Origin: Natronosalvus amylolyticus
Lineage (GTDB): Archaea > Halobacteriota > Halobacteria > Halobacteriales > Natrialbaceae
Length of the DNA stretch: 64,000 nt
Direction: 5' to 3'
NCBI RefSeq assembly: GCF_024298845.1
Contig: NZ_CP101156.1
Span: forward strand, 1,550,001 to 1,614,000
The notes beneath the pieces were generated by a model. That model had not been told where the DNA came from. It did no database searches and worked only from the letters and a program-made list of their open reading frames with translations. The translations under genes and the position numbers were made by a program. This document shows, piece by piece, positions 3,157-6,569 of this stretch (position 1 is its first letter; each line of letters opens with the position of its first letter).

Positions 3157-3996
3157 CTACTCAGCGTCTTCGTTTTGCTTCTCCGCGTCGTTGTTTCGGT
3201 TCTCCTCGTTGCCGTTGTGATGGAGTTCGAGCGCTTCGGGCACCGTCAACTCACCGCTGGCAACCCGCCGGGCCAGCGCTTCGTCGATGGCCCGGTTGGT
3301 CTCGCTGTACTCGCGCGAGCGGTCTTTGATTACCTGTAGCTCACCCGCTGTCGGTTCGATTTCTCGTGTTTCGACGGGTTCGCCCTCGAGGCGGGCAATG
3401 TTGACTGCAGCCAGCACGTCACCCATGCCACGCGCACCGGTGCCCAGGTACGGCGTCGTCCCCGTCTCGTCGACCAGTTCGACGCGGACGTCCTCGAGGT
3501 CGGAGACGAGTTTTGCTCCCTCGATTCGAGAGCCGTCGCCCACGCGAACCACCGGGTCGACCGGGTTGCCCTCGCGAACTTCCCGATGGATCACCTCGAC
3601 GGCGTCGCCAATCGGCACCTGAAAGGCGGCGACGACGGTCTCGCCCGCCAGTACGGCGATGCCGGGGTTTCGACCGGGGTCAACCCCGATAATCGTGCGG
3701 CCGCCACCACCTCGAACGGTCGCCAGCGCTTCGTCGACGGCCGCCCGAATCGCGTCGGGGTCAGCGACGATCACTGACACCCCTTCGTCCGCGAACGATT
3801 CGGCGTGTTCGGCCCCGGTGACGATCACCGTCGTCGACTCCGGGAGGTCGTCGTCCGGTTCGACGGTCGTAAACGTCGCTCCCCGGTCGCGAAGTTCGTT
3901 GACGACCCCGTGGTACACTTCGAAATCGGCTGTGGCGACGACGATCACACTCGTCTTTGGCGTTCCACGGAATAAAGTGTGTTCGCCCTCAGGCAT
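3157..3996 (-). CDS. RuvC-like (RNase H fold) conserved haloarchaeal protein
   Basis: A 279-aa protein whose core, from about residue 100, reads TIIGVDPGRNPGIAVL. This is the first beta strand and catalytic Asp (Asp106) of RuvC/RNase H-fold nucleases. A helix with GARGMGDVLAAVNIARL near residues 187-203 places Asp193 where RuvC-type proteins have their last catalytic acid. Residues 1-95 form a separate alpha/beta domain with VIVVATADFEVYHGV. The C-terminal tail is charged and Asn-rich. The ATG at 3996 is chosen because an upstream in-frame extension runs into the radB promoter. Its divergent position next to radB suggests a recombination or repair role. Nuclease activity is an inference. Confidence 0.6.
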   Translation of the reverse strand: MPEGEHTLFRGTPKTSVIVVATADFEVYHGVVNELRDRGATFTTVEPDDDLPESTTVIVTGAEHAESFADEGVSVIVADPDAIRAAVDEALATVRGGGGRTIIGVDPGRNPGIAVLAGETVVAAFQVPIGDAVEVIHREVREGNPVDPVVRVGDGSRIEGAKLVSDLEDVRVELVDETGTTPYLGTGARGMGDVLAAVNIARLEGEPVETREIEPTAGELQVIKDRSREYSETNRAIDEALARRVASGELTVPEALELHHNGNEENRNNDAEKQNEDAE

Positions 3997-4075
3997 TCGT
4001 TGAGCGGTATTCTTTCCGCCTCGAGGTTCCACACTCGAGTCATGCGAACCAGCGTCACAGCCCGTTTTCGGGGCC

Positions 4076-4083
4076 TTTTTTAT
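4076..4083 (+). promoter_or_regulatory. TATA-like box of radB
   Basis: TTTTTTAT is centred about 25 bp before the GTG at 4105, which fits a leaderless haloarchaeal transcript. The position supports the GTG over the longer in-frame extension that starts at 3979. Confidence 0.55.
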
Positions 4084-4104
4084 CACCGCCGGGAAAGGTC
4101 GACC

Positions 4105-4812
4105 GTGAACGACGAGGCTATCCCGACCGGCTGTGGACCAGTCGATTCGCTGCTCGAGGGTGGATTCGAACGCGGGGCCGTCACCCAGGTGTACGGGCCG
4201 CCAGCGTCGGGAAAGACGAATATCGCGCTCTCTGCGGCCGTCGAGACAGCCGCGAACGGGGGTACCGCCGTCTACATCGACACCGAGGGCGTCTCCGTCG
4301 ACCGGTTCGAACAGCTGTTACGAGCCAGAACCGACGACGTGGAAGCGGTCGCCTCGAACATCGTCATCGAAGACGCCTACGACTTCGGCGAACAGGCCGA
4401 AGCCGTCCGCGACGCGGCCGATTTCGCCGAACGGGCCGACCTGATCGTCCTGGACAGCGCCACCGGCTTTTATCGTCTCGAGCGTGGCGACGACGGCGAG
4501 GCAGGGGACGCCCTCCGCCAGGTCGCCAATCAGATCACACACCTGCTCTCGCTCGCGCGCAAACACGACCTCGCCGTGGTCATCACGAACCAGGTGTTCG
4601 CCGACCCTGACAGCGACCGCACCCGTCCGCTCGGCGGCAATACCCTCGAACACTGGACCGGCGTCGTCGTCCGTCTCGACCGGTTCCGCGGCGGCAACCG
4701 CCGTGCGACGCTGACCAAACACCGCTCGAAAGCCGCCGGTGACTCCGCGACGTTCCGCATCACGGGCGACGGCCTCGAGGGGGCCGACGAACCCGCGCGA
4801 CTGAACGGTTGA
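4105..4812 (+). CDS. radB: DNA repair and recombination protein RadB
   Basis: This 235-aa RecA-superfamily ATPase has Walker A GPPASGKT (residues 31-38) and Walker B LIVLDSA (about 112-118). It lacks the N-terminal helix-hairpin-helix domain of RadA, and that size and architecture define RadB, the archaeal RadA paralogue that assists homologous recombination. The GTG start at 4105 gives the normal RadB N terminus (NDEAIPTGCGPVDSLLEGG) and lies 25 bp after a TATA-like box. It is divergent from the RuvC-like gene, with start codons 108 bp apart. Downstream lies the converging CBS-domain gene. Confidence 0.93.
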   Translation: MNDEAIPTGCGPVDSLLEGGFERGAVTQVYGPPASGKTNIALSAAVETAANGGTAVYIDTEGVSVDRFEQLLRARTDDVEAVASNIVIEDAYDFGEQAEAVRDAADFAERADLIVLDSATGFYRLERGDDGEAGDALRQVANQITHLLSLARKHDLAVVITNQVFADPDSDRTRPLGGNTLEHWTGVVVRLDRFRGGNRRATLTKHRSKAAGDSATFRITGDGLEGADEPARLNG

Positions 4813-4896: not shown

Positions 4897-6069
4897 CTAC
4901 AGTTCGTTCAGTTTGCGGAGCAACTGACCGCGGTACTCCTCGTCGCTTCTGACGCCTTTCAACTCGAGGACGTTGCGCTCGAGTTTGTCCAGCGCGACGC
5001 GGAAAGCGTTCTCCGCGCCGTAGCCCTCACCGGACCCGGCGACCTGTGATTTGTTGGTACGCAGGCGAATCTGACACTGGATGAGCGGAGTTCCGCGCAG
5101 TTTCTCTTTGTGCTCGTGGAAGCGCACGTGTGCGTGCTGAACCTGCATATCGGCGTACTTGTCCGCGACCTGCTCGATGCTCTGGGTGATCGATTCCCGG
5201 CTGATAGTGTCCATCAACGAGATGTTCGTAATCTGGACATCCATGTGCTCTTCTTCGGTGAACGTCAACGCGCGGAGGACGTCCGTTTTCGTGACGACAC
5301 CCTGAATCACGCGGTCGTCGTCTGCCGGGGTAACGACAAGGCCGGCGTAGTCGTGCTCGAGCATCGTTTCGACCGCCTCTTTGGCCGTCGCGTCGGGCGT
5401 CGTCGTGACGACCGGACTGTTCATGATATCGTAGATTGGGACGTCGAGCATCCGGTCGTTGTCGCCGACGCGGTCGCCGGTGGTCATCCGTTCGTTCTGT
5501 CGGATGACGAAGTCGGCGATGTCGTGGGTGGTGACGACACCGGTCAGGTAACCGTTTTCGTTGACGACCGGCAGTCGCGAAATACCGTGCTCGCGGAGGT
5601 GATTGATGGCCTTGCCCACTCCGTCACCTTCCTCGAGTCGGACGGGTTCTTCAGTGTAGAGGTCGGTTACCGTCAGCGCGTCGAGATTGTCGAGGACGGC
5701 CCGCAGCAGGTCGTTGTCCGTGATGACGCCCCAGAGTTCGTCGTGTTCGAAAACGGGCGCGACTTTGGTATTGCCCTCGACGAGCACGCGTGCGACCTCG
5801 CGGACGTCTTCGTGTCGGTCGACTTTGGGTGATGGGTTGTTACGGCTCGGTTTGATCAGGGCCGCGACCTTGGCGTCGTCCTCGACGTGTGACTGGAGGA
5901 CCTCTCGTTCGCTGATGACGCCAGCGTACGAGCCGTCATCGATGACGATCAGTCCCTTGGGATTGCCGTTCTCAAACATCGAACGAACCTTCCCCATTCG
6001 CGTTCCAACATCGACTTCGATGTACTCCGTCGTGGCGATATCAGCGATATTCATCGTTTCACTCTCCAT
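4897..6069 (-). CDS. Four-CBS-domain protein with hibernation-promoting-factor-like C-terminal domain
   Basis: A 390-aa cytoplasmic protein. Four CBS motifs run in tandem over residues 6-275; diagnostic segments are GLIVIDDGSYAGVISEREV, APVFEHDELWGVITDNDLL, SRLPVVNENGYLTGVVTTHD and AGLVVTPADDDRVIQGVVTK. CBS pairs bind adenine nucleotides. Residues 276-390 differ: a strand and helix (VQITNISLMDTISRESITQS), two strands (HVRFHEHKEKLRGTPLIQCQ) and a final helix with AFRVALDKLERNVLELK, an order resembling bacterial HPF/RaiA ribosome-hibernation factors. A role in nucleotide-sensed ribosome inactivation is inferred. An alternative start five codons downstream (Met6) is equally plausible. Confidence 0.72.
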   Translation of the reverse strand: MESETMNIADIATTEYIEVDVGTRMGKVRSMFENGNPKGLIVIDDGSYAGVISEREVLQSHVEDDAKVAALIKPSRNNPSPKVDRHEDVREVARVLVEGNTKVAPVFEHDELWGVITDNDLLRAVLDNLDALTVTDLYTEEPVRLEEGDGVGKAINHLREHGISRLPVVNENGYLTGVVTTHDIADFVIRQNERMTTGDRVGDNDRMLDVPIYDIMNSPVVTTTPDATAKEAVETMLEHDYAGLVVTPADDDRVIQGVVTKTDVLRALTFTEEEHMDVQITNISLMDTISRESITQSIEQVADKYADMQVQHAHVRFHEHKEKLRGTPLIQCQIRLRTNKSQVAGSGEGYGAENAFRVALDKLERNVLELKGVRSDEEYRGQLLRKLNEL

Positions 6070-6245
6070 TACTCTCGCGGAACTATTTAAGATACCGCCA
6101 ACCGCTTCGCCCCTAGAATGACCGTGTGGCTTTTGTACGCTCGAACGGATTGCCGGTATCTTGTGTGCTCGAGCGGACACGGCAACACGACTCCGACAAC
6201 GTGGTTTGCCCCAGTAGCTATAGGTGATCGTTTCCTGTGTTGGAT

Positions 6246-6569
6246 ATGGCTCGAGACATTAGCGTTTTCGGACGATACACCTACCTCCTGACCGAAGTTT
6301 TCTGGGGAACAATCGCCTTCCTGTTGTTGCGCCGCGCCGGCGCGCTCAGACGGGCGGCCGTCACCATCCTCGCGCTGTATCCCATCGCCTACTTCTGGGA
6401 CTGGTATACCCTCGAGGTTGGCGTCTTCGACATTCCGCTTCGAACCGGAATCGAAATCGGAGGCATCCCGCTCGAGGAACATCTCTTTATGGCCGTTGTT
6501 CCTGGCCTCGTCATCGGTTTTCACGAAAACATTCACGCGGACGACGACCAGCCCCAGGACGGGAGATGA
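6246..6569 (+). CDS. Single lycopene-cyclase-domain membrane protein
   Basis: This 107-aa protein has three predicted membrane helices: YLLTEVFWGTIAFLLLRRAG, AAVTILALYPIAYFWDWYTL and EEHLFMAVVPGLVIGFHENI. The motif IPLEEHLFM is typical of the heterodimeric or fused archaeal and actinobacterial lycopene cyclase (CrtYc/CrtYd) domains. Haloarchaeal CrtY proteins normally carry two such domains. This one has a single domain, so it may be a half-sized subunit or a divergent paralogue. No partner lies adjacent, and the carotenoid cluster is more than 50 kb away in the window. The ATG at 6246 is chosen over a GTG three codons upstream. Confidence 0.68.
   Translation: MARDISVFGRYTYLLTEVFWGTIAFLLLRRAGALRRAAVTILALYPIAYFWDWYTLEVGVFDIPLRTGIEIGGIPLEEHLFMAVVPGLVIGFHENIHADDDQPQDGR

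Follow-up and report, generated by a model that had tools for sequence, protein, structure and literature searches.

The window, a stretch of 64,000 nucleotides from the 4.2 Mb, five-contig genome of the haloarchaeon Natronosalvus amylolyticus, contains a gene that fits the HibA family in every defining feature that can be tested by sequence or model. On the basis of its homology and predicted fold, this gene is very probably the haloarchaeal chromosomal orthologue of hibA and encodes a ribosome hibernation factor. HibA of Pyrococcus abyssi (PAB0961, Q9UYR4; PDB 9sr9, 9sra-9srf, and 9t7h) was published in April 2026 by Madru et al. with evidence from cryo-EM on the 70S ribosome, translation inhibition, and AMP binding, together with a deletion phenotype (PMC13324472). 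The initial annotation had read the gene as a hibernation factor; this is right in outline and is already published for the HibA family, so it is not new. Its remark that archaea have few well-described hibernation factors is out of date, as HibA, Dri, aRDF, and MRDF have now been described. The gene and its parts are arranged as follows in window coordinates:

6084 to 6090, minus strand: TATA box TTAAATA of the inferred promoter, kept upstream of the start in close relatives
4897 to 6054, minus strand: hibA coding sequence from the likeliest start, ATG 6054 (385 aa); the alternative is ATG 6069 (390 aa)
5266 to 6048, minus strand: CBS module of four CBS domains (four PF00571 stretches; Foldseek), with approximate borders at about residues 8-61, 79-131, 133-190, and 213-268 of the 390-aa frame
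5521 to 5541, minus strand: CBS3 nucleotide signature GVVTTHD (G and D in 88/88 alignment rows, T or S in 88/88)
5455 to 5499, minus strand: PTC loop of 15 residues (QNERMTTGDRVGDND), aligned with the P. abyssi HibA PTC loop 190-207
5281 to 5301, minus strand: CBS4 nucleotide signature GVVTKTD (G and D in 88/88 alignment rows, T in 82/88)
4900 to 5244, minus strand: C-terminal HPF/RaiA domain, residues 276-390 (Pfam, PDB sequence search, model, Foldseek, and VIA-align)

The frame at 4897-6069, for which no strand had been given, is indeed open and encodes 390 amino acids without interruption on the minus strand; its start at 6069 is probably five codons too early. Translated from the second ATG (6054), the window protein begins MNIADIA, and the N-termini of the examined relatives, either MNIADIA or MDIADIA, match this position. 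Upstream DNA of related loci was compared by eye to assess conservation of the TATA box, and the expected transcription start, approximately 25 bases past this box, falls between the two ATGs. The start position in relatives and the position of the expected transcription start together suggest that hibA probably begins at 6054. Among named relatives, Natronosalvus hydrolyticus is the closest at this locus, with 92% protein identity.

A PDB sequence search aligned residues 7-387 of the window protein with residues 5-388 of P. abyssi HibA (9sr9_H, E 3e-47), an entry that contains HibA and ATP on the 70S ribosome, and also matched chain a of PDB 9l96 (E 5e-62). With this end-to-end homology to a characterized member, the window protein has the defining architecture of the family, four tandem CBS domains and then an HPF/RaiA domain in a single chain, and its third CBS domain is followed by a PTC loop of 15 residues, the same length as in P. 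abyssi. The combination of four CBS domains and an HPF/RaiA-like domain that had been described from the letters of the DNA is therefore borne out by Pfam, the predicted fold, and homology over the whole chain. The two proteins are alike in domain order, PTC loop length, and the GhxTxxD signatures of CBS3 and CBS4, whereas the haloarchaeal protein is acidic (computed pI 4.84) and differs in loop sequence and much else. A further likeness is found in HVO_2384 of Haloferax volcanii, described in 2025 as a protein with CBS domains and a ribosome hibernation factor domain, 42.5 kDa, and pI 4.87 (PMC12607858). It has the same tandem CBS domains and C-terminal hibernation-factor domain, its mass and pI are near those of the short-loop type discussed below, and its orthology to the window gene rests on mass, pI, and a Haloferax profundi relative (42.4 kDa computed) with 66% identity to the window protein. 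A search of the literature for ribosome-binding experiments on haloarchaeal short-loop HibA found none.

The C-terminal domain was modeled alone with 24 aligned haloarchaeal sequences (pLDDT 82.8, pTM 0.72). AlphaFold2 reproduced the strand-helix-strand-strand-strand-helix order noted earlier for the last 115 residues (E2-6, H16-29, E35-49, E52-63, E67-75, and H77-114), and the comparison with HPF, which had been proposed as a check, revealed an HPF/RaiA fold, so the refuting outcome foreseen in the initial annotation did not arise. VIA-align superposed 94 residues on E. coli HPF from the hibernating 100S ribosome (6h4n), with a Z of 12.4 and an rmsd of 2.2, while the first unrelated row reached Z 7.4 and dsRBD-type folds Z 7.3. 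The best 30 Foldseek matches of this domain in the PDB were all HPF/RaiA/YfiA/pY-type proteins, many of them ribosome-bound. Ribosomal_S30AE (PF02482) matched residues 291-371 of the full protein at 21.2 bits, under the 23.7 gathering cut-off; the last 115 residues alone scored 24.3 bits, above the cut-off, and the window protein scored 24.0 bits in the genome scan. The equivalog cut-off of TIGR00741 (NCBIfam) was not reached (18.8 bits vs 40.9), suggesting that the domain, although it has the HPF fold in common with the bacterial proteins, does not belong to their stand-alone type. Bacterial HPF/RaiA/YfiA proteins are without a CBS module and are only approximately 20% identical to the window domain. 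Searched alone, the C-terminal 115 residues matched PDB 9l96 (E 5e-17) and P. abyssi HibA 9sr9 (E 6e-7). A chance resemblance of the C-terminus to HPF is ruled out by the fold, Pfam, and these PDB matches.

The weak Pfam score in the full protein, together with the presence of dsRBD-type folds lower in the structural list, might be taken to mean that the C-terminal fold is an RNA- or protein-binding module only, and that it does not inactivate ribosomes. We regard this as extremely improbable, as the protein is homologous over its full length to a factor that cryo-EM has shown on the ribosome, and the HPF score lies far above those of the dsRBDs.

The four CBS stretches in the window protein were recognized by Pfam (PF00571, E 2e-41). 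The full-length AlphaFold model, which in Foldseek matched archaeal CBS modules (MJ1225 and SSO3205), AMPK gamma, and Dri as well as CBS proteins from M. acetivorans ribosomes, was only moderate (pLDDT 75, pTM 0.60), and thus the placing of the CBS module relative to the C-terminal domain was left unused. Dri of Pyrobaculum (PDB 9e6q and 9e7f) and the Methanosarcina ribosome proteins (PDB 9znf-9zni) represent CBS modules that bind archaeal ribosomes, although Dri has two CBS modules and no HPF/RaiA domain (PMC13324472). Across 88 alignment rows, the GhxTxxD signature is conserved in CBS3 and CBS4 and inconsistent in CBS1 and CBS2. In P. abyssi HibA, ATP and AMP are held by CBS3 and CBS4 as a pair, and the CBS module binds AMP, ADP, and ATP with Kd values of 12 uM, 65 uM, and 113 uM, respectively; binding to the ribosome proceeds without clear effect of AMP or ATP (PMC13324472). 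The retained signatures therefore support AMP binding by the window protein and do not extend to a regulatory effect. CBS3 and CBS4 of the window protein can probably bind AMP. The earlier suggestion that the fusion links energy charge to ribosome inactivation has partial support: the signatures speak for nucleotide binding, but no clear nucleotide control of ribosome binding was seen in P. abyssi.

By analogy with P. abyssi and Thermococcus barophilus, we infer that HibA of the window organism acts on ribosomes as it does in those species. In P. abyssi, the C-terminal domain of HibA occupies the mRNA channel of the 30S subunit in every state, and the CBS module is found at the PTC, at uL5, or at the L1 stalk (PMC13324472). 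The HPF/RaiA domain of the window protein would likewise occupy the mRNA channel, and its CBS module would swing onto the 50S subunit at one of these three positions. The module may thereby fill empty tRNA sites and help to keep the subunits joined as 70S, which would leave intact ribosomes ready at regrowth. Deletion of hibA in T. barophilus lowered 70S ribosomes by approximately 60% and extended the lag phase from 2 to 4 h. The binding of HibA to ribosomes and to AMP, its inhibition of translation, this loss of 70S on deletion, and the function of the PTC loop are all known from P. abyssi or T. barophilus (PMC13324472).

A RadB-like Rad51-family gene (3979-4812, plus strand) is convergent with hibA at a distance of approximately 85 bases. 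A special linkage between hibA and radB was considered because HibA from P. abyssi and Haloferax has been reported to bind RadB: PMC3820547 describes the recovery of Pab0961, which is P. abyssi HibA, in pull-downs with RadB and GINS23, and cites a personal communication that HVO_2384 binds RadA as well as RadB. From these reports, a second role for HibA is possible. It could even be supposed that HibA is mainly a regulator of replication or recombination whose CBS module binds RadB, RadA, or GINS, with the ribosome role being secondary or with a DNA-side partner storing HibA for times of need. Of 80 haloarchaeal hibA loci, 52 do have a RadB-like gene in the flanking DNA that was retrieved. However, the genes on the other side are linked to hibA at least as strongly, with lycopene-cyclase-like genes in 58 and CAP protein genes in 52 of the 80 loci, and the retrieved hibA flanks of seven genomes from elsewhere in the phylum, none of them haloarchaeal, gave no RadB match. 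The retention of the HPF domain and the ribosome role proven in P. abyssi also argue against this possibility, and we consider it quite unlikely. The special linkage is likewise unsupported, as it equals general haloarchaeal local synteny. In the window, the lycopene-cyclase-type domain (PF18916) belongs to a 110-aa protein encoded at 6237-6569, divergent from hibA.

With the window gene read as hibA, its 15-residue PTC loop places it in one of two haloarchaeal types. At the PTC-loop position, P. abyssi and each of the 41 short-type haloarchaeal sequences in the tree set have 15 residues, and 14-16 residues are aligned there in other members of the phylum. The accessory type has a PTC loop of 27-40 residues, usually with a Gly/Ser-rich stretch (SQGG...GGFGAREG). 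Two further full-length HibA copies on contig C5, near 70864-72097 (plus strand) and 237166-238386 (minus strand), carry PTC loops that are rich in Gly and Ser and 36 and 40 residues long, as compared with 15 in the window copy. One of them comes after a universal stress protein gene (PF00582), and the other lies 1.4 kb from a catalase-peroxidase-like gene. In a tree built by a quick method with the loop columns excluded, the long-loop rows are set apart from all others by a branch with SH-aLRT 99 and are sister to the short-loop haloarchaeal rows. PDB 9l96, the row for which was assembled, like that for 9sr9, from printed search alignments, falls inside the long-loop group among haloarchaeal sequences. 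The 406-aa "CBS domain-containing protein" of PDB 9l96, 9l98, 9l9c, and 9l9v has its architecture in common with the window HibA; its PTC loop of 40 residues relates it to the copies on contig C5 and not to the window copy. Thus, a deposited structure exists for a long-loop HibA, although a literature search for the paper behind 9l96 did not find it.

Long-loop-type matches at E 1e-40 are present in 38 of 99 genomes of the order. The short-loop and long-loop genes are directly adjacent on one strand in genome G067 (C11:50168-52575), and some haloarchaeal genomes (G010, G002, and G009) have only a weak match to the window protein and yet possess a long-loop HibA, as if this type had taken the place of the short-loop one. 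We tentatively propose that haloarchaea have a near-universal short-loop chromosomal HibA and a long-loop accessory HibA, and that the two may differ in how they plug the ribosome and in the stresses that they serve, although we hold this to be somewhat doubtful. Haloarchaeal paralogues are not mentioned in the main text of PMC13324472, and we found no earlier description of the two types.

When either type is counted, HibA matches (E 1e-25 or better) occur in 287 of 293 Halobacteriales genomes, and in 254 of 255 when good assemblies are considered. A phylum-wide draw of 80 genomes yielded 29 matches at E 1e-30, 11 of which were from Halobacteriales.

The window gene confirms known biology and adds no new system. 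HibA has been proven in hyperthermophiles, and nearly all haloarchaea carry it. Some haloarchaea, such as Haloferax, are genetically tractable, and thus AMP control of hibernation is directly testable there, as is a functional difference between the two haloarchaeal HibA types.
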